Below are positions 1,879 to 15,790 of a stretch of DNA of 54,988 bases, piece by piece. How positions within the stretch are numbered: the first letter of the stretch is position 1; the number at the start of each line of letters is the position of its first letter. Origin of the DNA: Methanothrix sp. (GTDB taxonomy: Archaea > Halobacteriota > Methanosarcinia > Methanotrichales > Methanotrichaceae); the NCBI GenBank assembly GCA_025361645.1, contig JANYKI010000023.1, forward strand, positions 1 to 54,988. Direction: 5' to 3'. Position numbers and translations under genes: made by a program. The notes below the pieces were generated by a model. That model had not been told where the DNA came from, ran no database searches, and saw only the letters and a program-made list of their open reading frames with translations.

Positions 1879-3356
1879 TCTTCAATAGCCTACAATATCT
1901 GATTTTCTTCACTGCGGTCCTATTGATAACCGTTCTCATTAAGCTTCGCCAAAATCAAGTGGCATTTCTGTTTATGGCCAGTTGCGTCTTTTATTTTCTC
2001 TCCAGCAGCTATCTCATTTTATGCCTGTTCTTCGTTTCCCTGATAACGTATTATGCAGGCCAGGCCATTTATCGAGAACAAGCTTTTGCATGGCGAAGAT
2101 TTTATCTTGCTTTATCCATCATTTGTGCTCTCGGACAACTGGGACTGTTCAAGTATTCTGGTCATTGGGATCGCATTTTGTTTGGCTTCTTAGGTCCTGA
2201 ATTCGACATTATTCATAAGGGAATTATCCTTGACGCATCCGGCCTGCTGCTACCCCTCGGTATATCCTTTTACACCTTTCAAAGCCTAAGTTATGTCTTC
2301 GACATTTATCGAGGCCGGCTCAAGCCCACTTCTTCCCTACTGGAATATATTTTGTTTGTCGCGTTCTTTCCTCAGATAACCTCCGGGCCGATCGTCAGAG
2401 CCAAGGACTTCCTGCATCAGATGGGAGCGATGCCGCGCCTGGGCGTCTCTGCTCCAGATCTGAAATATGGGATAACCCTTATCGGGATAGGTTTGCTTAA
2501 GAAAATGGTAATAGCCGATAATCTCGCTCAGTTAGTAGATCCTGTCTTCTCGCATCCTACAAATTTCAATTCCTTGCGCATTATCCTGGCCACGGTAACC
2601 TTCGGCATCCAGCTCTACTGTGACTTCTCAGGGTACAGCGACATTGCCATAGGCAGCGTCAGGATATTGGGGCTAAGATACCCTACCAACTTCAACAATC
2701 CATACCTTGCACTTAATCCTAGCGATTTCTGGCATCGATGGCATATTTCCCTTTCTTGTTTTCTCAGAGATTATCTTTATATACCGCTGGGCGGGAACCG
2801 GGCCGGCATTCTGCATACTCACCTAAATCTCCTCCTAACGATGACCATTTGCGGCCTGTGGCATGGATCCTCCTGGAATTTTCTTATCTGGGGAATTTAT
2901 CATGGAGCCCTCCTATCTGCTCAGAGACTCCTCTTCCAGGACTTATCGCTGATCAAGGGGTTGGAGAAAATTGTGAAAATGCGATTTTGCATTGCCCTGG
3001 AAGTTTTGATAACTCAGTACTTAGTCTTTTTAGGTTGGCTTATTTTCCGGGTCAAAGACTTAAATGATCTGGTTTATTGCCTGGACAAGTTCATCTTTTG
3101 GGATTTTCTCACCCGATTGCAGTATCAGAGCCTGGTCTATGGATTTTTGAAGGAGGCGGTTCTTTTCCTCCTTCCCCTGGGTCTGTATATTATTTTAATA
3201 ATATTCTATAGAGACGAATTTTGCCGCAAGGACTGGATAGGTATACTCAGTTCTCTTGACCTTAAGTACTGGCTGATCTATCTGATGGCCATCATTCTTG
3301 CATTAATCTGGTTTTCACCAAGCAGCAGCACAAATTATATATATTCTGCATTTTGA
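1875..3356 (+). CDS. MBOAT family O-acyltransferase (AlgI-like)
   Basis: A 493-residue polytopic membrane protein of the membrane-bound O-acyltransferase family. Family signatures are present: the LPLGISFYTFQSLSY segment near residue 125, SDFWHRWHISLS followed by FLRDYLYIPLGGNR, and the catalytic His in CGLWHGSSWNF. These proteins pass acetyl groups across the membrane to an extracytoplasmic acceptor or partner. The start ATG overlaps the stop of the SGNH-like gene (ATGA), which suggests translational coupling. The following glycosyltransferases, flippase and amino-sugar genes suggest acetylation of a surface or exopolysaccharide glycan. Length is typical for AlgI/PatA-type members. Confidence 0.88.
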   Translation: MIFNSLQYLIFFTAVLLITVLIKLRQNQVAFLFMASCVFYFLSSSYLILCLFFVSLITYYAGQAIYREQAFAWRRFYLALSIICALGQLGLFKYSGHWDRILFGFLGPEFDIIHKGIILDASGLLLPLGISFYTFQSLSYVFDIYRGRLKPTSSLLEYILFVAFFPQITSGPIVRAKDFLHQMGAMPRLGVSAPDLKYGITLIGIGLLKKMVIADNLAQLVDPVFSHPTNFNSLRIILATVTFGIQLYCDFSGYSDIAIGSVRILGLRYPTNFNNPYLALNPSDFWHRWHISLSCFLRDYLYIPLGGNRAGILHTHLNLLLTMTICGLWHGSSWNFLIWGIYHGALLSAQRLLFQDLSLIKGLEKIVKMRFCIALEVLITQYLVFLGWLIFRVKDLNDLVYCLDKFIFWDFLTRLQYQSLVYGFLKEAVLFLLPLGLYIILIIFYRDEFCRKDWIGILSSLDLKYWLIYLMAIILALIWFSPSSSTNYIYSAF

Positions 3357-3383
3357 TTAATGATATTTGTTCCTTCAATTTGC

Positions 3384-4880
3384 TCACCTCTTTCTTGAAG
3401 AGCAGATAGTTGAAATTAATAGATTTATATCTTCCTTTTTTAGAATTATTCCAAATACCAGGACGGTATATATGATCAGAATAACAAAACCAAGTAAGTA
3501 CTGATTGAAAAATTGTATCCCTACTATAAATGTCAAGGATCCTAAAAGAGCAGCAATAATCACCACTGCTAACCATCTAATATCCATTTTTATCGAGAGT
3601 GTTCGAATGGTCATAAGGCCGAATATAAGCGTCATGAGGATTAAAGATGTGCAAGTTGCGATGGCTGCACCAGCTATGCCGAATTTTGGTATAAGTACAA
3701 TGTTTAATATTACATTTGCTCCAGCACTTATTCCCGCAGCTTTTAGGCTCAGGTCTGGGCGGTTAATTCCAGCCAGCGAGCCCCCTATGGATGTGCAGGC
3801 AACTCCAAAAACCACTGTTCCTAGCAGCAATATCTGTAACGGTAAGGCCGATTGCTGGAATCCTTGGCCGTATATCCTGGAAACTATATCCTCCGCAAAG
3901 AAGCCAATTGCAAGACCTGCGGGCATAAGGGCGAGGGCAGAGTATCTCAGGCTTTTATCCAGCATCTTCTGCAGTCCAGGTATGTCCTTTTGGGTCCAGT
4001 ATTCGGATGTGGCCGGATAAGAAACGGTTTGAATCGCCTGGGGAACAACCAAAAAGAACTTACTAAGACCCGTCGCTGCTGAGTAGTATCCAACATTAGT
4101 GGCAGTTAGGAAATAGCCCAAGAATGCAACATCTGCCTGGAGGTTGATCATATTTATTAAATTTGCGCCAAACATCTGTGATCCGAAAGTGAGTAGCTTT
4201 TTTGTTGTTTCCAAATATCCATCCAGGATCAAATGAAAATATCCCCTGCAACTATAGATCAAGTAAGCAGACATGACAATTGAAGAAATCACAATGCTGA
4301 TTATAGCGCCCGAAACACCGAAATCGCGATAAATTAAAATCACAGTAGATACAGTCATTAGCACTTGCTGGAGAATCAAAGCTATGGCGTATCTCTTCAT
4401 CTTACGTAGCCCGTTCAATGTGCCATATAATATCGAATTGACCAGAATAAAGGGAAATACCGGAGAAAGCAACATTAATTGGCTTTTCATCTCCGGAGTT
4501 CTAAACAGGTCTGCAACCGTTTGAGATAACAGATATATTATTAGACTCATTATGACTCCTGCGATCAGGGACGTAATAATAGCCGAGGAGACAATCTTAT
4601 TCAAATTCACTTCATCATCTTTGTACTCTGCCACAAACTTAATCACGGCAACCGCGATTCCCAACGCACCCACCATGGTGGCAACTCCATAAAAAGTATA
4701 GGTCAGTCTATAGACTCCCAAGTCATATGCACCGAGATGCCTTGCCAAAATTATGGATATCACGAAAACTAGAAGCATATTGATTATTGATGCGATAAAT
4801 GTATGACTTACATCTAACGCAAACTTCTTTGCTTCCTGCATATGGCTATTTTGGAAAGCCCGATATAAAAGGCTCACCAT
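3384..4880 (-). CDS. polysaccharide/lipid-linked oligosaccharide flippase (Wzx-type, MOP superfamily)
   Basis: A 498-residue, highly hydrophobic protein with about 12-14 membrane spans. The N-terminal HTFIASIINMLLVFVISIILAR and the GVYRLTYTFYGVATMVGALG segment are typical of the polysaccharide transporter (PST/Wzx) branch of the MOP superfamily; the middle has paired helices with small-residue packing. Members flip lipid-linked glycans to the outer face of the membrane. It is divergently oriented from and tail-to-tail with the MBOAT gene (27 bp gap) and is followed downstream, after its upstream neighbour on the same strand, by sugar-transferase genes. Substrate specificity cannot be read from sequence. 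Confidence 0.85.
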   Translation of the reverse strand: MVSLLYRAFQNSHMQEAKKFALDVSHTFIASIINMLLVFVISIILARHLGAYDLGVYRLTYTFYGVATMVGALGIAVAVIKFVAEYKDDEVNLNKIVSSAIITSLIAGVIMSLIIYLLSQTVADLFRTPEMKSQLMLLSPVFPFILVNSILYGTLNGLRKMKRYAIALILQQVLMTVSTVILIYRDFGVSGAIISIVISSIVMSAYLIYSCRGYFHLILDGYLETTKKLLTFGSQMFGANLINMINLQADVAFLGYFLTATNVGYYSAATGLSKFFLVVPQAIQTVSYPATSEYWTQKDIPGLQKMLDKSLRYSALALMPAGLAIGFFAEDIVSRIYGQGFQQSALPLQILLLGTVVFGVACTSIGGSLAGINRPDLSLKAAGISAGANVILNIVLIPKFGIAGAAIATCTSLILMTLIFGLMTIRTLSIKMDIRWLAVVIIAALLGSLTFIVGIQFFNQYLLGFVILIIYTVLVFGIILKKEDINLLISTICSSRKR

Positions 4881-4910
4881 TTGCGCGTCTTGTACCTAAA
4901 AATATCGATA

Positions 4911-6029
4911 TTATAGGGACTTCAATGCTTCGTGAACTGTTTTTGCCCTCTCTTTCCAGGTATGATGCGGCCTGATTTTAATAAGTTCCTCGGACAGCTT
5001 TTCTCGGATATCTGGATTTAAGATCAGCATTTCCGCTTTTTTTTCTAGATCTAGAGCATCATAATTCACATATATTATGCCGCCGTCCTTGCCTATTTCC
5101 AGAAGGGATTCGCATTTCGTGCAGAGGATGGGCTTAGCAGTTCCTATGTACTCAAAGAGCTTTGTGGGAGAGCTGAAATTCATGTAGCTCTCTCTTGGGT
5201 CGTAAGGCATAACGAAAAGATCGACATCGTCCAGAGCTTCGGGCAGGTCTTTCCTGGGAATCTGCTTTCTGACGATGAAATCACTCCTTTCGATGGACTC
5301 TTTAAGCTCCGAAGTAATGCTTTCCCCATAAGAACCAAAGAGATACAGCTTCACGTAGGGATATTTCTTATGCAATTCTTCGCAGGCTTTGAAGAGTATT
5401 TCTATGCCACGGTTCTTCGTCAGCCCTCCCAGGTAGCAGATGTTGAATCTATTCTGAATACTATTATACCTATTAGGATATACTTCCCCGAGGGTTTCTT
5501 CATAAGCGTTAGGCACAAAAGCAATTTGTTTATTTTGATCTATTTTATATTTTGTTTTCAGATAGTTCCACATGGGCCGGTTTAAGGCCAGAATTAAAGC
5601 GGCTTTTCTAAAGTAATAGCTTTCTTGTTCCCTACTTAGTGTGGATTTTCCGGTGCCTATTACCTGTGCTTGTTCAACGGTATCGTGAATGTCCAAAACA
5701 GTGTCCAATTGGAGAAACTTACACAAATGAAATAGGCCCCTGTTTTGCATCGTAGTTAAAGAGTGAGGATAGGCAAAAAAAACCACGGGCCTGTCCACGA
5801 TCAATGATGCTGCGGTCCGAAAAGCTACGATTGTCTTTATTAAATTATTATATATTAATGGTATCAAATTTTTGCCGAGCATTTGCTTGAAACTTATGGA
5901 TTTAACCTCCAAATCAGGAAAAACCCCAATTCCATTGAGCAGATAATGTATTCTGGTATATGTGGCAGATACATTAGTATCCAAACCATCCAGTATCTTT
6001 CCGTTCACCACAGCAAAAAGCTTGATCAC
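4911..6029 (-). CDS. GT-B glycosyltransferase (family 4-like)
   Basis: About 372 residues with two Rossmann-like halves. The C-terminal half carries the nucleotide-sugar part: FNICYLGGLTKNRGIEIL, then VDLFVMPYDPRESYMNFSSP and the TKLFEYIGTAKPILCT segment, where the Glu of KLFEYI is the usual E of the EX7E-like motif. No signal peptide or membrane span; it probably acts on the cytoplasmic face on a lipid-linked acceptor. The frame is open from a TTG at 6062, but the GTG at 6029 is preferred because a GGGAGGCG Shine-Dalgarno lies 5-6 bases upstream and it begins directly with the first beta strand (VIKLFAVVNG). It lies 30 bp upstream of the flippase on the same strand. Confidence 0.82.
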   Translation of the reverse strand: MIKLFAVVNGKILDGLDTNVSATYTRIHYLLNGIGVFPDLEVKSISFKQMLGKNLIPLIYNNLIKTIVAFRTAASLIVDRPVVFFAYPHSLTTMQNRGLFHLCKFLQLDTVLDIHDTVEQAQVIGTGKSTLSREQESYYFRKAALILALNRPMWNYLKTKYKIDQNKQIAFVPNAYEETLGEVYPNRYNSIQNRFNICYLGGLTKNRGIEILFKACEELHKKYPYVKLYLFGSYGESITSELKESIERSDFIVRKQIPRKDLPEALDDVDLFVMPYDPRESYMNFSSPTKLFEYIGTAKPILCTKCESLLEIGKDGGIIYVNYDALDLEKKAEMLILNPDIREKLSEELIKIRPHHTWKERAKTVHEALKSL

Positions 6030-7177: not shown

Positions 7178-8301
7178 GTCTTTGATGCCTCATTTAAGAC
7201 GTTTTCGTAGCTATGGGCAATCTCTCTCCAATCGTACTTCAAAGCCAGGGAACGGTGTCTCTTCTCGTCGTTTCCTGCTGCCAAGACGTTCTTTACCTGC
7301 ATAATGAAGCTCTCCACATCATCGTAGTAGTATATCTCGTCGCCGAGCAGCCGCTCCAGAGAGATCATGCGGCTGGAGAGCACCGGTCGGCCGCAGGCCA
7401 AATAGTTGAAGACCTTTCCCCCGGCTGCGTACTCATTCTTCTTCATCATCTTCAGGGGATTAAGACCTATATCCATAGCAGAAATGTAGCGGGAGAGATC
7501 GGCATACTTTACTGCGCCCGTGAAGACAATCCTATCCAGAACACCTAAGCCATTCGCCATCTTCTTTATCTCGTCTCCATAATCGGTAAAAAGCCCCGGC
7601 CCCACAACGAGCAACGTTGCATCAATGCGTGGCAAGGCCGCCACCACCGTCTCCAGATCCACCCAGTGCTCGAGTGAGCCCACGTAGCCTAGAACCACAC
7701 CCTTCAGGCCCAGAGATTTCTTGGCTTCTAGCATTGAAAGTGGCAAAAGAAGCTTTGTATCCACGCCATTGGGAATCACCGTTATGTCTTTTACACCCAG
7801 GTCCTGCAGAAATTCCGAAAGCTCACGGGTAACTGTAATTACGGAATGGGCCGTGCGAAGATTGTATTTGGTGATGAGGCTTACCACTTGCTTTACGATC
7901 TCACCTAAGGCAGATCCAGGATAATAAATCGATGCCGACTCCTCCAGGTGATCCAGATAGTCGAATACGACTGGCGAGTGCGCGAAGTTTGCGGCAAAGG
8001 ATGGCAAAATATTGGTGGAGAGGATGACGTCTATGTCCAGCTTCTTCACAATGCTCCCAATCTTCCACAAGTGGTATGGGAAATTCAAGAGGTAATAGAG
8101 GGAAGGGTCCTCGACATTTATCCAGCTCGCTTCCACCAGCCGGCATTTTGTTTCCCTTGCCGGCAGTTTGGAAAACCTCTTCAGGCCGAAATGCAGTACA
8201 TACACATCGTGTTTCTCTGCTAAAATATCGAAGATGAAGTTGAGCCGATTGGGAACAGGATGCCTGATCCAGTCGGTGGTGGGTATTACCAGTATTCTCA
8301 T
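7168..8301 (-). CDS. GT-B glycosyltransferase (group 1)
   Basis: 377 residues. MRILVIPTTDWIRHPVPNR at the N-terminus is a Rossmann strand with a glycine-poor loop as in glycosyltransferases that use a retaining GT-B fold. Later motifs are VITVTRELSEFL, VIPNGVDTKLLLP, VLGYVGSLEHWVDLETVV, and AAGGKVFNYLACGRPVLSS with the conserved acidic/aromatic pocket. It reads toward the previous glycosyltransferase and diverges from the sugar nucleotidylyltransferase gene at 8449; the 147 bp between them must hold both promoters. Donor and acceptor are unknown. Confidence 0.84.
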   Translation of the reverse strand: MRILVIPTTDWIRHPVPNRLNFIFDILAEKHDVYVLHFGLKRFSKLPARETKCRLVEASWINVEDPSLYYLLNFPYHLWKIGSIVKKLDIDVILSTNILPSFAANFAHSPVVFDYLDHLEESASIYYPGSALGEIVKQVVSLITKYNLRTAHSVITVTRELSEFLQDLGVKDITVIPNGVDTKLLLPLSMLEAKKSLGLKGVVLGYVGSLEHWVDLETVVAALPRIDATLLVVGPGLFTDYGDEIKKMANGLGVLDRIVFTGAVKYADLSRYISAMDIGLNPLKMMKKNEYAAGGKVFNYLACGRPVLSSRMISLERLLGDEIYYYDDVESFIMQVKNVLAAGNDEKRHRSLALKYDWREIAHSYENVLNEASKTHG

Positions 8302-8448
8302 TATCCTGTCGCCCTCGCGAAAGAGTCCTTGCTTTCTGCATCTATAAAAGACTGGGCCTTTGAACCTTAGTATTTCCCATTAGAATTGCGGACCGAAAAG
8401 ATCTAAAGCCAGGCTGAGCTTTATGCACCAGTTCTAGATATCCGGGCT

Positions 8449-9657
8449 GTGATAGATTTGAAGGGTGTAATATTGGCGGCAGGAGAAGGCCGTAGATGCA
8501 GGCCACTTACCCAGACCAGATCCAAGGTCATGCTTCCCGTGGGAAACCGCCCTTTCATGGAGCATGTCATTTCGGCTCTGGCTGCTAACGGCATTCGAGA
8601 TCTCTACATTGTAGTGGGCTATCAGAAAGAAAGGGTCATGGACTATTTCGAGGATGGTCTTGATTTTGGCGTAAAGATCACTTACCTCGAACAAAATGAG
8701 CTTTTGGGGACGGCTCATGCCCTGCGCAAAGCTGAAAGCTATGTGAATGAGGAATTTCTCGTGGTCAACGGAGATAATCTCATAGATGCAAGGGCGGTCA
8801 AGGAGCTGATCTCAGCCATTGGAGAGAACGTGATATTGGCTGCTCTTCGCCGGCATTCCGGAGACTATGGGGTCTTAATGGTAGAACAGGAGAGGGTAAA
8901 GGCAATAATCGAGAAGCCAGGGAGGCCATGTTCCGGAATTCTCAATACGGGAGCCTACAAATTCAGTCCTGCGATCTTTGAAGATCTTCGCCATACTCCC
9001 ATATCGGAGAGGGGATCTTACGAACTGACAGAGACCCTATCTCAGATGATCGCAGAGGGAAAAGAGATCGTACCCCAGATCTGTAAAGGCATATGGTCCG
9101 ATGCCATATTCGCCTGGGATCTTCTCAATGCCAACAACCTGGCTTTGGGCATGAAGGATACAACAATCAAAGGGGAAGTGGAAGAGGGCGTCAGAATCAA
9201 AGGCCCGGTGGAGGTGGGCGAGGGTAGCATTATCCGCTCCGGATCTTATCTGGTGGGCCCGGTCTGTATCGGCGAGGACTGCGACATCGGCCCGTGTGCC
9301 ACCATCCTGCCGTCCACTTCCATAGGTGACTCGGCGAGGATCGGTTCACATTCTGAGATAAGAAACAGCATAATCATGAATGATACCAGGATCGGTTCAG
9401 GAACTATTATTTCCGACTCGGTTATAGGAGCAAGCTGCACTTTGGGAGACCAATTGGTCATCGAGACGGGCACATGTGTGGTCGAGGTGGAGGAAGCCTT
9501 TTTAAGGGCAGAGTTCGGGGCAATATTTGCCGATGATGTGACCGCAGGAAGCAGAGTTCTGGTCAGTCCGGGAACGGTTGTGGGCACGGGTGCGCGCATA
9601 GGCTCGGGAGCCTCAATTCGCGGCTGGATTGAGAGAGAGAGCAGGGTGATTAGCTGA
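8449..9657 (+). CDS. sugar-1-phosphate nucleotidylyltransferase with left-handed beta-helix domain (GlmU-like, acetyltransferase residues not seen)
   Basis: 402 residues. The N-terminal domain has the nucleotidyltransferase signature LAAGEGRRCRPLT, the substrate loops GTAHAL and VVNGDNLID, and YELTETLSQMI. The C-terminal third is a hexapeptide-repeat beta helix (GEGSIIRSG, GEDCDIGPC, GDSARIGSH). It is a paralogue of the GlmU-like gene at 20721, but the HLSYLGD and GAGTVCSN segments of that protein, which carry the acetyltransferase His, Tyr and Asn, are absent here (TRIGSGTIISD and SCTLGDQLV stand in their place). I infer a nucleotidylyltransferase only. The start codon is GTG, and its stop overlaps the glmS start (TGATG), so the two are probably co-translated. 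Confidence 0.8.
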   Translation: MIDLKGVILAAGEGRRCRPLTQTRSKVMLPVGNRPFMEHVISALAANGIRDLYIVVGYQKERVMDYFEDGLDFGVKITYLEQNELLGTAHALRKAESYVNEEFLVVNGDNLIDARAVKELISAIGENVILAALRRHSGDYGVLMVEQERVKAIIEKPGRPCSGILNTGAYKFSPAIFEDLRHTPISERGSYELTETLSQMIAEGKEIVPQICKGIWSDAIFAWDLLNANNLALGMKDTTIKGEVEEGVRIKGPVEVGEGSIIRSGSYLVGPVCIGEDCDIGPCATILPSTSIGDSARIGSHSEIRNSIIMNDTRIGSGTIISDSVIGASCTLGDQLVIETGTCVVEVEEAFLRAEFGAIFADDVTAGSRVLVSPGTVVGTGARIGSGASIRGWIERESRVIS

Positions 9658-11462
9658 TGTGTGGAATTGTGGCTTATGTCGGCGACCTGGTGGCAGGGCC
9701 GATTCTCTTTGATACTCTGAAAAGGCTGGAGTATAGAGGTTATGATTCGGCGGGTGTGGCCCTCAAGTCTGAGGGAGCAATTGTGGTCTTGAAGTCTGCC
9801 GGGCGAATCGCAGATCTGGAAAAGGTCTACCAATCCAGAGGCTGTCCGGGAGAGGGCATGGGCATCGGCCATACCCGCTGGGCAACGCATGGTAGGCCGA
9901 GCGATCGGAATGCACATCCTCACACCTCTGGGGAGATCGCCATAGTGCATAACGGCATCATTGAAAACTACCTGGATCTAAGAGAGCTGCTGACTGAAAT
10001 GGGCTATGTGTTTTCATCCGAGACGGACAGCGAGGTACTGGCTCATCTCATTCACTTTTATTTTAAGGGTGATCTTTACGCCGCCGTTTGCAGGGCTTTA
10101 GTGCATGTGGAAGGCTCCTATGCCGTGGCCGTGCTCGCGGCCAGTTCACCCTATTTGGTCTGTGCCAGAAAGGACAGCCCCCTGGTGCTGGGCAAAGGCA
10201 AAACTGCAATCTATGTGGCATCCGATGTTCCCGCGCTTCTTCCCTATACCAAAGACGTCATCCGCATGAAGGACGGCGAGATCGCCCGGGTCTTTGCGGA
10301 CCGGGTTGAGATAATGGATAGGGAGGGCCAGCCTCGCCTGGCACAGGTAGAGCGCATCACCTGGGATGCCGATGCCGCAGAGAAGGGCGGCTATACGCAT
10401 TTCATGCTCAAGGAGATTCATGAGCAGCCGCGAGCCATTCGCGAGACCATTGCCGGGCGCATCTCGGAGATAGACGGGGATGTGCGACTCAAACTGGGCA
10501 TGAGCGATGAAGAGATAAAAGGCCTGGAAAGGGTGACCATCATCGCCTGCGGCACATCCTACCACGCCGGAATGCTGGCCAAGAACCTGTTTGCTCGTGT
10601 GGCCGGTCTGCCGGTGGATGTAGAGGTGGCATCCGAGTTTTTGAATATTCAGGTGCGACCCAGAACCCTCCTTTTGGGCATCACCCAGTCCGGAGAGACG
10701 GCAGATACTCTGCTGGCCCTGAAGAAGGCCAAGACCTGTGGTGGAAGGAGCTTGGCCATAACCAATGTCGTGGGATCAACTGTAACCGAGCTGGTGGACG
10801 GCACCATCTACACTCGCTGCGGCCCTGAGATCGGCGTGGCTGCCACCAAGACCTTCACCTCTCAGCTGGTGGCCATCATTCTGCTGGCCATACGTCTGGG
10901 CAGAGCCCGCGCCCATCTGACGCCCGATCAGGCCAGAAAGATGCTCATTGAGCTGACCAAACTCCCCGGCCTGGTGCAGAGGGTTTTGGAGAAGAGGGAA
11001 GAGATCAGAAAGATCGCCGAGCGTTATGCAGGCGCAAGCTGCTACTTCTTCATCGGCAGGGACTATCTCTATCCCATCTCTTTAGAAGGCGCGCTGAAGA
11101 TGAAGGAGATCGCCTACATCCCATCGGAGGGCTACGCGGGAGGCGAGCTTAAGCACGGGCCGCTGGCATTGATTACGGAAAAGACGCCCGTAGTGGCGCT
11201 GGCCACTTGCGGCAAGAAGATTCAGTCCAATATCAAAGAGGTCAGAGCACGTGGCGCTGAAGTGATAGCCCTGGCCACGGAAGGAGACCCGGATATCGCC
11301 AAGGTGGCCAGTCATGTGATTGAGCTGCCACAGACGCAGCCCATCTACTCCGCCGTGCTCTGCACCGTGGCCGTGCAGCTTCTCTCTTATTATACGGCAA
11401 ACAAGCTGGGTCTACCCATTGATAAACCTCGTAACCTTGCCAAGTGCGTGACCGTGGAGTGA
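9657..11462 (+). CDS. glmS: glutamine--fructose-6-phosphate aminotransferase (isomerizing)
   Basis: 601 residues, full length for GlmS. It makes glucosamine-6-phosphate from fructose-6-phosphate and glutamine, the first step to UDP-GlcNAc. The N-terminal glutaminase begins MCGIVAYVG, so Cys2 becomes the nucleophile after Met removal; GHTRWATHG and HNGIIENY are the glutamine-binding loops. Two SIS domains follow, with IACGTSYHAGM, TQSGETADT, SLEGALKMKEIAY and the C-terminal KPRNLAKCVTVE. It overlaps the upstream nucleotidylyltransferase stop and is followed by a hairpin region. It supplies amino-sugar precursor for the surface glycan genes on both sides. Confidence 0.96.
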   Translation: MCGIVAYVGDLVAGPILFDTLKRLEYRGYDSAGVALKSEGAIVVLKSAGRIADLEKVYQSRGCPGEGMGIGHTRWATHGRPSDRNAHPHTSGEIAIVHNGIIENYLDLRELLTEMGYVFSSETDSEVLAHLIHFYFKGDLYAAVCRALVHVEGSYAVAVLAASSPYLVCARKDSPLVLGKGKTAIYVASDVPALLPYTKDVIRMKDGEIARVFADRVEIMDREGQPRLAQVERITWDADAAEKGGYTHFMLKEIHEQPRAIRETIAGRISEIDGDVRLKLGMSDEEIKGLERVTIIACGTSYHAGMLAKNLFARVAGLPVDVEVASEFLNIQVRPRTLLLGITQSGETADTLLALKKAKTCGGRSLAITNVVGSTVTELVDGTIYTRCGPEIGVAATKTFTSQLVAIILLAIRLGRARAHLTPDQARKMLIELTKLPGLVQRVLEKREEIRKIAERYAGASCYFFIGRDYLYPISLEGALKMKEIAYIPSEGYAGGELKHGPLALITEKTPVVALATCGKKIQSNIKEVRARGAEVIALATEGDPDIAKVASHVIELPQTQPIYSAVLCTVAVQLLSYYTANKLGLPIDKPRNLAKCVTVE

Positions 11463-11558: not shown

Positions 11559-11963
11559 CTAACTGCTCACAACTATGTTTTCGATTTTCATCCCGTCGAT
11601 GACAACCGTGATCTTGGAGCCAGGCCCTACGATCTTTTCTGAATTATCAGCCATGAAATATCCGTGGCTGAGGCTCCTGCGTCCCACTGAGCGCGATGCC
11701 AGTGCGCCAAGAAACGACACATTTTGTACATTCAGTCGCTTTCCAGTCATCTCATCCACGATGAAGAGCGTTCTGCCCCTTGACTGAGGCATGGGAAGCC
11801 TGGTGCGGTATCCTACCATGATCAGGCTGCTTTCGACTGCCAGCATAGCCGAAGCCATTTCTATGCGGTTATCTCCGTTCATAGGTTCGTTCAAATTCTC
11901 AAGGGAGACCGCATCCGGCTCACTCTTCAGGCATTCCTCGCCTGGTGGTATAGTTACCTGCAT
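11559..11963 (-). CDS. hypothetical protein downstream of multicopper oxidase
   Basis: 134 residues, soluble, no signal peptide, no recognised family. It contains an acidic N-terminus rich in Glu/Asn and a middle part with MGYRTRLP-like and LFIVDEMTGKRL strands that could form a small beta domain; there are no cysteines in CxxC pairs and only one Cys in the N-terminal part. The start ATG has GAGGTG about 6 bases upstream. It lies 38 bp after the intact multicopper oxidase on the same strand and before a hairpin terminator, so it is probably the last gene of that operon. A link to copper or to the oxidase is a guess from position only. Confidence 0.6.
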   Translation of the reverse strand: MQVTIPPGEECLKSEPDAVSLENLNEPMNGDNRIEMASAMLAVESSLIMVGYRTRLPMPQSRGRTLFIVDEMTGKRLNVQNVSFLGALASRSVGRRSLSHGYFMADNSEKIVGPGSKITVVIDGMKIENIVVSS

Positions 11964-12001: not shown

Positions 12002-13894
12002 TCATGGTAGTGGCGGGATTGGAGCCGCCGGTAGTGTCGGTATTACGTCCATTGCACCCACGCCGCCAGCTGGGAACGGATTAAACCAGGTTGGCTTATT
12101 TGCAGGAGTATTGGGCACATCGGTTACTACCTGCAGTATGGCTCCTCCGCCAGGGTAGAGGTCATTGGTGGTGACTCGGTAGTCGTCGTGGTCGTGGATG
12201 GGGAAGATCTGCCTCCACTTAAGGGTAGGTTTACCGCCTGCATCAAGGATCAAAGGATGCGGAGTGGACAGAGGTGAGCCTGCCGGGTCAGTGACGCCCC
12301 ATACAGGGTTCGCCAGAGTGATGGTATCGTAGGTCTCTCCTGAGCCAACCAGAATGGTGAAGACGTCTCTAAACGGATTTTGCAGAACAGCGTCCTTTCC
12401 CACGATGGTAGCATGCCATTCATGCTGATGCATGGGATGCTCCTGGTAGCCCATGTTGATGTAACGAATGAGGAACTTCTGATTGGTCTTCATGGCCACC
12501 AGGGTATTGTAGAGAGGCTCAGGGTCCGCCGGGCCAAAGGTGGTCGAGGTAGCCCCAGGAGTGTTCCAGGCGAATGGCAGAATTGTCTGCGGGAAGGTTC
12601 TGCCGTTGGCGAACCATAGCTCAGGCTTCCAGTCGGCGGCCCTGAAACCCGTGACCAGAAGATCAACTATTTCTCCTTCAATCAGCCTGTGCCACCTGGG
12701 ATCGATCTCGCTGATGATGATGGTGTTCTCCACATCATAATCAGTATTGGTCTTTCGCCCGTACACAGTCTTGTTAGTGGGGCTGTAATCGGCAGGCCTG
12801 ACAACAATTGCTCCGTACATGCCCATCTGTACATGCTCAGAAGCTATCATGTGGCAGTGATACATGAATGTGCCCATGTGCATGGTGGGTTGGAAGTAGT
12901 AGGTAAACTGGGTTGCTTCCTCCATGGTGTACCCGGCAACTGGTGAAGTAGCATCCTTCCTAACCGTTGCATCTGCCCCATACATCTGGGCATATGTTCC
13001 CCAGATACGACGGTCAGTAAGAACTGCCGATGGAGTGTATCCGACGGCCATAGGCCATACGCCGGACGAAAATTGACTCAGGATGGCTCCCATGGGATCG
13101 AGAAAATTATCCTTGATCAAAGGCACATTGGCATTCAGCAAGGTCGTCTGCTGGGCCATGGTCATGGCGTTCCAGGCGGCATCTCTGGCTTTGGTTGTCG
13201 TTCCCAGGGCGATATACCAGGGCTCCAGCCAGAAGTATCTTAGTTTCTCTTTGTAGCTTCCCGCGGACTCGGGAAAACCATCGTAGGGGGCCTGAGCATG
13301 GATTCCGTGCAGGTGCAGGGTATGATCATCCTGGACTGCCTGGTTATACTGGAAGAATCCCCGGTTATGCACGGTTATGAAGACGTGATCACCTAATTTG
13401 CACTCAATAAAAGGTCCAGGGAATTTGGCATTGCCCACCTCCGGATTTGTCCTTCTGCTCGTCAGGGGCAGGATTGTAGGGGGGACCGCGCCGGGAGGCA
13501 CTGTAAACAGATTTGGGAAGGTCGCTGTCGGCGGCACGCCCACCATGATGTTGGGATCTCTATCAGTAAAACCCCAGACGTAGACCGGCCCGGAATAACT
13601 TGGTGCAATTGGCGGCACGGGCGGCACTACCGGTGGGGGATTTAAGAACCAGCCTGCGATCACGGTTTGGTCCATCGTTTGGCCTAGTGGTACGGCTACA
13701 GGCGGCCAGACACCCGAGGTTGGATTAATATACCCATCGGTTATGTATAGATCATAATGTATGATCTTTCCCGGCATGCTGTGCTGCATTGCCATAGCGC
13801 CCACATTCGCAGAGAGATCCCTATCTGGCATACCCAATGTGGTCTTGATTTCAGGCCCCAATTGGTTTCCTTTAGCGTATTTGCGTTTTTCCAT
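12002..13894 (-). CDS. multicopper oxidase family protein with copper ligands present
   Basis: 630 residues, cupredoxin-fold multicopper oxidase. Copper-site motifs are visible: HTLHLHG (His191, 194, 196), FMYHCHMIASEHVQMGM (His346, Cys347, His348, His354, Met359), HPMHQHEWH (His486, 489, 491, 494) and PIHDHDD (His567, 569). The Cys-His-Met set that forms a type 1 site is in the first half, while the last motif has HDH where three-domain laccases have HCH; this suggests the type 1 copper is in domain 1. There is a proline-rich insert near residues 87-98. No signal peptide or Tat motif is visible, which is unusual for the family. Substrate unknown. A TATA box and GGGAGA ribosome site precede the ATG. 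Confidence 0.88.
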   Translation of the reverse strand: MEKRKYAKGNQLGPEIKTTLGMPDRDLSANVGAMAMQHSMPGKIIHYDLYITDGYINPTSGVWPPVAVPLGQTMDQTVIAGWFLNPPPVVPPVPPIAPSYSGPVYVWGFTDRDPNIMVGVPPTATFPNLFTVPPGAVPPTILPLTSRRTNPEVGNAKFPGPFIECKLGDHVFITVHNRGFFQYNQAVQDDHTLHLHGIHAQAPYDGFPESAGSYKEKLRYFWLEPWYIALGTTTKARDAAWNAMTMAQQTTLLNANVPLIKDNFLDPMGAILSQFSSGVWPMAVGYTPSAVLTDRRIWGTYAQMYGADATVRKDATSPVAGYTMEEATQFTYYFQPTMHMGTFMYHCHMIASEHVQMGMYGAIVVRPADYSPTNKTVYGRKTNTDYDVENTIIISEIDPRWHRLIEGEIVDLLVTGFRAADWKPELWFANGRTFPQTILPFAWNTPGATSTTFGPADPEPLYNTLVAMKTNQKFLIRYINMGYQEHPMHQHEWHATIVGKDAVLQNPFRDVFTILVGSGETYDTITLANPVWGVTDPAGSPLSTPHPLILDAGGKPTLKWRQIFPIHDHDDYRVTTNDLYPGGGAILQVVTDVPNTPANKPTWFNPFPAGGVGAMDVIPTLPAAPIPPLP

Positions 13895-13929
13895 AATATC
13901 TCCCTTCTAAATCTAAATTTTTATATTGA

Positions 13930-13957
13930 TACTGTTAAGCAGTACTTATATATAAAT
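13930..13957 (-). promoter_or_regulatory. promoter of the multicopper oxidase gene with a dyad next to the TATA box
   Basis: On the minus strand the TATA-like AATTTATATATAAG (about 13944-13957) is followed at once by TACTGCTTAACAGTA (13930-13944), whose 5-base arms are perfectly inverted. A transcript starting about 25 bases after the box would begin near 13922, so the dyad lies between TATA box and start, a common place for an archaeal repressor operator. The regulator is not known. Confidence 0.5.
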
Positions 13958-14005
13958 TTTTTGAAAGCTATTAATATTTTGGCAAAAGGGAATGACAAAA
14001 AAAAG

Positions 14006-14037
14006 TTGAGAACTCATTCTTCTCAAACAGAGTTCTC
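14006..14037. repeat. nested inverted repeats between the two multicopper oxidase genes
   Basis: TTGAGAA at 14006-14012 is inverted at 14020-14026 (TTCTCAA), and GAGAACT at 14008-14014 is inverted at 14031-14037 (AGTTCTC). The two pairings are mutually exclusive. The element lies 20 bp past the stop of the upstream paralogue; a single GAGAACT also occurs upstream of that gene at 15803-15809. It could be a terminator or a binding site. Confidence 0.35.
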
Positions 14038-14057
14038 ATCGAAACGCTGTTTTCGCT

Positions 14058-15713
14058 TCAAGGCAACGGCTCGACCTTTTCGGTATAGGGATCAAACCAC
14101 GTTGGCCTTCCGCTGGGTGTTTTAGATGCGCTTGCGGCTTCGATGAGGGTCATCATCCCGCCGGGATAGATCCCGCAAGTGGTTGCACGGCAGCCATTCT
14201 GGTTTCTTAGGGGATGGATCTGTCTCCAGGCAAGAGTGTCTGAACCCAACGACGACGCCGCCAAGCCTAAAAGTGGCGATGTCTCCACACGGTTGGCGCC
14301 ATTGGCATCATCCACAGAGGTTATCACTTCATAGGTCTCGCCGGGGGCGATAGAGAGGGTAGATTTCCCTATTTGTGCAGTTACAGCAAAGCCGTCGCCG
14401 CCCACGATACGCATGCTCCAGCCATGCTGACTAATGGACTGACTCTGATGGCCTGCGTTAATATATCGTACCAAGAAATTATGGTTAGGCTCGACATTAA
14501 GGTGTGTGTTGTATCGCGATTCCAGGTCGGCACTTCCGCCCATCTTGTTCCAGGCAAAAGGCGATAAGGTTTGAGGAAAAGTTCTGCCGTTGATGAACCA
14601 CAACTCAGGCTGCCATTCAGGCTGATAGTAATTGGGTGTATCCGCATCGCCTTCTATGAACCTGTGCCAGCGGGGGTCGAACTCGCTGAGTATGAATGTG
14701 TACTCCTGGTCATAATCGGTGCTGGTATTCATTCCATAAACCGATCTGCTCCCATCAGCGGGCCTTACCACCAGAGCGCCACATATGCCCATATTCATGT
14801 CCTCTGACATGTTCTTAAGTCCATAATACATGAAAGTTCCTGGGCGCACGGGCCGGAAGTGATATGTAAATCGGGTCCATTCCTCAGCAGTTTCGTGGGG
14901 GATTTTGCCCCCGATTCCATCCGGATAAGGTGCATCATTTCGCAGACTGTATATTCCGCCCGCTTGATTGAGATGATTGGGCTTGATGAGAGGGACGTTT
15001 TCCTTTAGCAGGGCTTGTTGCATCTCCGCCGTGAGGGCATTCCACCAGTCATCCTTCATTCTGGAGACGATCCCCTGCGCCCGATACCAGTCTTCTTCCC
15101 AGAAGTATCTGAGGGTCTCTTCATAGCAGCCTGCCGATTCAGGGAACCCGTCATACTGCGCCGGGGAATTGACGCCATGAAGATGCAGGGAGATGTCATC
15201 CTGAATTCTCTGATTTTTTTGGAAGAATCCGCGATTGTATACTGTTATGAAGAGATCGTCTCCAGCCGCACATTCCAGGAAGGGACCGGGAAACTTGGCA
15301 TTGCCCACTGGTAACCATTCCTTAGCTGCCGCTCCTTTAGGCACGAACATAATATTGCCGGGGACATTCGGGTCCAGATCGGTGAAACCCCATATATATA
15401 TTGGATCTTTCCATCCGGGAATTGATGTGCAGTCGCCCCCCGGCGGCCAGGCGCCTCTGGAGGGATTGATGTATCCATCAGTGAGGTAGAGCTGGTAGTG
15501 CCAGATCTTCCTGGCGGGGGGGCTTGCTTTTTGCGAGGCAAATCTTCTCTGCTGCTGCGCGAGAGCCGTTTTTGACTTCAGGGCATCCTTTGATCCGTTG
15601 ACGGCCTCTCTTAAGGAAGATAGGCTGGACCGGATAGTGGCCATGGCCCGATCAGGCAGGCGCTTGAGGCTTTCGGCATCAATTTTATTAATAATATCAT
15701 CTGACTGCTTCAT
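14058..15713 (-). CDS. multicopper-oxidase-like protein lacking most copper ligands
   Basis: 551 residues and clearly paralogous to the neighbour at 12002: shared segments include WHYQLYLTDGYINPS, GNAKFPGPF, DGFPESAG, NGRTFPQTL and GIYPGG. HLHG is kept, but the other copper positions are replaced. The neighbour's YHCHMIASEHVQMGM reads YYGLKNMSEDMNMGI here, HPMHQHEWH reads QSISQHGWS, and IHDHDDY reads LRNQNGC. A catalytic copper cluster therefore looks impossible. The frame is intact and the protein fold residues are conserved, so it is not simply a decayed gene. The N-terminal 60 residues are polar and helical with no signal peptide. The ATG at 15713 is preferred over TTG 15722 because AGGAG lies upstream. 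It may be a binding partner or structural protein. Confidence 0.82.
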   Translation of the reverse strand: MKQSDDIINKIDAESLKRLPDRAMATIRSSLSSLREAVNGSKDALKSKTALAQQQRRFASQKASPPARKIWHYQLYLTDGYINPSRGAWPPGGDCTSIPGWKDPIYIWGFTDLDPNVPGNIMFVPKGAAAKEWLPVGNAKFPGPFLECAAGDDLFITVYNRGFFQKNQRIQDDISLHLHGVNSPAQYDGFPESAGCYEETLRYFWEEDWYRAQGIVSRMKDDWWNALTAEMQQALLKENVPLIKPNHLNQAGGIYSLRNDAPYPDGIGGKIPHETAEEWTRFTYHFRPVRPGTFMYYGLKNMSEDMNMGICGALVVRPADGSRSVYGMNTSTDYDQEYTFILSEFDPRWHRFIEGDADTPNYYQPEWQPELWFINGRTFPQTLSPFAWNKMGGSADLESRYNTHLNVEPNHNFLVRYINAGHQSQSISQHGWSMRIVGGDGFAVTAQIGKSTLSIAPGETYEVITSVDDANGANRVETSPLLGLAASSLGSDTLAWRQIHPLRNQNGCRATTCGIYPGGMMTLIEAASASKTPSGRPTWFDPYTEKVEPLP

Positions 15714-15777
15714 CTCCACCAACTCCTACGACACGACTGTTTTCTGCATGACTCTTTTTTTATATTAGATAATACAA

Positions 15778-15790
15778 GCATATAAATTTT
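15778..15790 (-). promoter_or_regulatory. TATA box of the multicopper-oxidase-like gene
   Basis: On the minus strand AAATTTATATGC matches the archaeal TATA consensus, about 65 bases before the ATG at 15713, which predicts a leader of roughly 40 nt containing AGGAG. The AAATTTATAT core is shared with the promoter of the paralogue. Confidence 0.45.

Follow-up and report, generated by a model that had tools for sequence, protein, structure and literature searches.

We asked why a multicopper oxidase (MCO) gene that has lost most of its copper ligands stands, with its frame open, next to a ligand-complete relative. In methanogens, which are strict anaerobes, one would not expect copper enzymes that reduce oxygen. 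The window (the whole stretch of DNA analysed, 54,988 nucleotides) carries three genes in this order on its minus strand, the upstream one with an alternative TTG start at 15722:

14058 to 15713, minus strand: candidate MCO pseudoenzyme gene; product of 551 aa, counted from the ATG, with 3 of 12 copper ligands kept
12002 to 13894, minus strand: ligand-complete MCO gene, 630 aa, type C pattern (T1 in domain 1), product without signal peptide; from Pfam, solved matches and alignment
11559 to 11963, minus strand: gene for a 134-aa protein with no Pfam family, which in L011 and L046 too lies directly 3' of an active MCO

The first two frames are both fully open, and their products are 41% identical over nearly the whole length (E 5e-147). 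The upstream protein matches PF07732 with 53.2 bits and PF00394 with 31.4 bits (curated cut-off 21 for each), and the intact MCO matches PF07732 with 53.6 and PF07731 with 43.2 bits. As both score above the curated cut-offs of Cu-oxidase models, both belong to the MCO superfamily, and the pair of MCO paralogues proposed by the initial annotation is real. An assembly chimera was ruled out: both frames are open on one 55-kb contig, with a GC content of 52-54% compared to 51% in the window.

The best solved-structure matches of the intact MCO, 3g5w (E 4e-11) and 2zwn (E 2e-11), are two-domain MCOs, presumably of type C, with the same motif order and the T1 Cys in domain 1. The intact MCO itself has HCH..EH....M in domain 1 and HDH without a Cys in domain 2, and carries all 12 ligands expected of a functional MCO (two His, Cys and Met at T1 plus eight trinuclear-site His). 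This is the arrangement of type C two-domain MCOs, which hold T1 copper only in the N-terminal cupredoxin domain (PMC13151041). Compared to 2zwn, the methanogen proteins have ~100 extra residues between the HLHG and HCH motifs. The closest archaeal homologues outside the clade, haloarchaeal MCOs (L016-L044), have intact ligand motifs but lack the insertion (the matching profile columns are absent) and show HCHK, not HDH, in domain 2. The methanogen proteins thus make up a clade marked by this insertion, which neither 2zwn nor the haloarchaeal homologues have.

The upstream protein differs from type C two-domain MCOs in that its copper sites are lost. The changes lie in four motifs:

15174 to 15185, minus strand: HLHG motif kept (H177, H179), adjoining the lost type-1 His (I174), by alignment
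14817 to 14825, minus strand: YGL replacing HCH (two T3 His and the T1 Cys lost), by alignment
14415 to 14441, minus strand: QSISQHGWS replacing HPMHQHEWH (T2 His lost, T3 His430 kept), by alignment
14199 to 14207, minus strand: RNQ replacing HDH (two T3 His lost), by alignment

In the alignment to relatives nine of the 12 canonical ligands are gone and H177, H179 and H430 remain. The first T1 His, before HLHG, has become I174 (DHTLHLHG in the intact MCO, DISLHLHG upstream). Where the intact protein reads YHCH..EH....M the upstream one reads YYGL..ED....I, so that the two T3 His are replaced by Y297 and L299, the T1 Cys by G298, the second T1 His by D305 and the T1 Met by I310. In domain 2 the T2 His has changed to S428 while the T3 H430 is kept, and PIHDHDD has become PLRNQNG, with R503 and Q505 in place of both HDH His. 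The initial annotation had read a loss of nearly every ligand, with HCH changed to YGL and HDH to RNQ, HLHG retained and the frame intact, and the alignment agrees on each point. It had also counted two His lost from HPMHQHEWH; the Gln and Ser changes are correct, but three His are lost and only the S428 site is a canonical trinuclear-cluster ligand. The losses at I174, D305 and I310 were additional to its list. Q425 replaces a thirteenth conserved motif His, which is a non-ligand in the type C layout and was used only in the 13-position test below. A type C two-domain MCO would be expected to form a homotrimer whose trinuclear site lies between subunits; AlphaFold models, made from a shallow alignment, reached pLDDT of only 39 and 33, too low for use.

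Was the upstream protein ever an oxidase? Neither the window paralogue nor L011 or L046 has lost any of the 12 canonical ligands, and ten haloarchaeal homologues keep the motifs intact; therefore the ligand loss is derived and the ancestral state was active. We searched 238 genomes of the class, 50 of the family, 232 of the order of L011 and samples of the phylum for close relatives, and pattern-based scans of public genome contigs, sensitive to close relatives only, were also run. Besides the window genome, only G027 (another genus of the same family), L011 (a Methanomicrobiales MAG) and L046 (in G678, found by way of the order of L011) had close relatives among the genomes searched. The clade is thus held by only four genomes in the methanogen groups searched, and the gene is very patchy, occurring in 2 of the 50 family genomes. 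A viral or plasmid source was rejected, as there was no viral match and the plasmid matches were only distant and mostly haloarchaeal.

The upstream protein groups with the G027 protein, with support of 100/100 in an unrooted five-sequence tree and 93/89 with a haloarchaeal outgroup. The intact MCO groups with L011 and L046, weakly so once the outgroup is added (74/72), and the position of the root is therefore not firm. Since the upstream protein clades with the single-copy G027 orthologue and apart from the intact MCO, a recent tandem duplication, as the initial annotation had supposed, is ruled out; the duplication behind the pair must at least be old, unless the intact gene came in separately. 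Both proteins carry M481A and H494S (numbering of the intact MCO) at otherwise invariant positions, and they alone have an additional N-terminal element, absent from the intact MCO, whose 42 residues align with a score of 73 (the maximum in 500 shuffles was 53):

15552 to 15677, minus strand: N-terminal amphipathic helical extension, residues 13-54, common only to the G027 orthologue

The G027 orthologue retains seven of 12 ligands. Its five losses are the first T1 His (F), both HCH His (L, N), the T1 Met (L) and the second HDH His (N). Because the shared losses carry different residues, they may, to judge by the alignment, have arisen in parallel. The window and G027 together form a graded series of 12, 7 and 3 ligands out of 12, which allows the step-by-step disappearance of the chemistry to be followed in a protein that is itself retained.

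We then considered where the proteins act. No hydrophobic stretch was found in the first 60 residues of either window MCO, whereas the MCOs of L011 and L046 begin with hydrophobic signal-like stretches. The stop-to-stop frames, of 555 and 634 codons, extend no more than four codons upstream of each ATG, so that no signal peptide could have been missed upstream. Small ORFs directly after the MCO in L011 (7400-7804, E 2e-10) and L046 (2072-2575, E 6e-12), both Methanomicrobiales, encode homologues of the 134-aa protein that have a hydrophobic N-terminal anchor; the window version lacks this anchor, just as the window MCOs lack a signal peptide. Export therefore seems absent from the whole window cassette, and the surface role suggested initially for the upstream protein is unlikely. 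In L011, the MCO cassette lies inside a DUF4418/ABC/FtsX-MacB transporter cluster (3097-5394 and 8008-11171), and a second, three-domain-like MCO is found at 13067-15025 on the minus strand.

Could the upstream protein be a subunit that joins the intact MCO in a hetero-oligomer and tunes or limits its activity? The two genes are adjacent and co-oriented, three trinuclear-site His remain in the upstream protein, and in two-domain MCOs the trinuclear site is built from residues of two neighbouring protomers (PMC13151041). As to their control, which is possibly shared, both genes are preceded by AAATTTATAT-like promoter boxes and an upstream GTTCTCA element. The region contains:

15779 to 15786, minus strand: TATA-like box TTTATATG, 65 bases upstream of the ATG of the upstream gene, from sequence
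13997 to 14038, minus strand: terminator-like hairpin (9-bp stem) and T8 run between the MCO genes, MFE -14.1 kcal/mol, z -1.6
13946 to 13956, minus strand: TATA-like box TTTATATATAA, 51 bases upstream of the ATG of the intact MCO, from sequence

The hairpin, although statistically unexceptional (z -1.6), and the separate TATA-like box between the genes argue against such a partnership, as does the tree, in which the two proteins do not pair. Moreover, G027 has a pseudo-type gene, whereas neither an intact MCO nor the third gene was found in a search of that genome. Lacking an intact paralogue, G027 is unlikely to depend on such a partnership, and the hetero-oligomer partner of the initial annotation does not stand as an obligate one. 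We consider the hetero-oligomer in general unlikely.

The third gene adjoins a ligand-complete MCO downstream in all three genomes that have it (window, L011 and L046). Its protein, uncharacterised and overlooked in the initial annotation, may be a partner of the active enzyme. One could speculate, at long odds, that all three products form a regulated oxygen- or copper-handling complex in acetoclastic methanogens, in which the lineage-specific, cytoplasmic upstream protein would set the number of trinuclear sites. No copper-handling gene was recognised among the flanking genes scanned, which are glycosyltransferases, a flippase and nucleotide-sugar enzymes, followed by FBPase, RuBisCO-like and A-type ATPase genes of central metabolism. 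In G027, the pseudo-type MCO gene has an encapsulin gene and a rubrerythrin/ferritin-like gene ~1 kb upstream of it, with an rlmH-like gene between (L007, 8315-9476 and 10459-12119). A link to encapsulin was ruled out, as the arrangement seen in G027 lacks conservation and encapsulin is absent from the window genome. Encapsulin genes in two other family assemblies (G009:C130 and G032:C122) match in two pieces, which suggests frameshifts there.

Next to be weighed is decay in progress, that is, a once-active oxidase that lost its function and is drifting with a frame still open by chance. The patchy occurrence of the gene is in favour of decay, and so is the G027 copy, the only orthologue in the genomes searched, in which the frame is broken by a single 1-nt frameshift (near 11709 of L007). 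The 137 codons beyond it are nevertheless 50% identical (pS saturated), so this is a recent decay or an assembly (MAG) error, not long-term decay. We compared the positions kept among 222 that are invariant in the three ligand-complete proteins. The upstream protein kept 165 of 209 non-ligand positions (79%) and 3 of 13 ligand-motif positions (Fisher p=5.6e-5). By residue type it kept all 9 W, all 12 N and all 10 E, and 22 of 24 G. Conservation was lower in domain 2, where 17/23 and 16/26 of the invariant positions were kept, as decay would have it. In G027 the same test gave 165/209 and 8/13, not significant alone (p=0.17). The concentration of losses at ligand motifs speaks against drift: in neutral simulation no frame was still open at 0.1 or more substitutions per site, and drift changing 10 of the 13 ligand-motif sites would leave little identity and many stops. 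Nor is the rate accelerated, since the branch of the upstream protein (0.66) falls inside the range of the active ones (0.42-0.78). Judged from these comparisons, the loss pattern is not that of random decay, and we regard decay as even less probable than a hetero-oligomer.

Between the upstream gene and its G027 orthologue pN was 0.29-0.32 and pS ~0.8, which is saturated, so that selection before and after the loss is not cleanly separable and the average includes the active past of the enzyme. Because dS is saturated, selection after the loss is what we infer; the combination of kept homology, lost ligands and apparent purifying selection elsewhere would make the upstream protein an MCO pseudoenzyme.

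The weakest explanation, a new metal or cofactor site in which His177, His179 and His430 coordinate another metal and serve a different chemistry, could draw on the retention of these three former trinuclear-site His in G027 as well and on SKU5, which likewise keeps two T2 His (PMC4203857), but is very improbable, as the alignment showed no recognisable set of substitute ligands where the originals are lost, and HLHG may persist for the fold alone.

We therefore return to the upstream gene as a retained pseudoenzyme under purifying selection, a cytoplasmic non-oxidase with a structural or binding role, which we consider the probable answer. The selected non-enzymatic role put forward initially is supported by the conserved non-ligand sites, the ordinary branch length, the intact frame and the gene's own TATA-like box and Shine-Dalgarno-like sequence, and that core inference was reasonable; the specific roles it named (hetero-oligomer partner, storage or surface protein) mostly lack such support, storage included. 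The upstream protein is a member of the methanogen clade of two-domain-type MCOs with type C ligands and the ~100-residue insertion. It has lost its type-1 site and most of the trinuclear site, probably starting before or around the split of the two Methanotrichaceae genera, after which purifying selection would have kept the protein as a cytoplasmic non-oxidase. It would fold as a cupredoxin oligomer and may act by protein-protein or ligand binding, in a scaffold-like manner such as that suggested for SufI/FtsP. The retained body, together with the N-terminal helix that the intact MCO lacks, would probably serve this binding, presumably without need of the intact neighbour.

Finally, we compared the upstream protein with known relatives. 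Copper-free MCO homologues are already known (SufI/FtsP, MCORP, SKU5); the archaeal variant is new. MCORP and SKU5-type proteins have no particular kinship to two-domain MCOs and are of independent origin. Like the upstream protein, insect MCORP and the SKU5-type plant proteins are MCO-related and miss many copper-coordinating residues, although they are eukaryotic; MCORP has no oxidase activity and yet is essential (PMC4203857). SufI (FtsP) of E. coli keeps two of 12 ligands, binds no copper and has a proposed scaffold role (PMC2661564). It resembles the upstream protein in combining the MCO fold with loss of most copper ligands (2/12 versus 3/12); however, SufI is bacterial, CueO-like, Tat-exported and periplasmic, whereas the upstream protein is archaeal, closest to two-domain MCOs and without a signal peptide.
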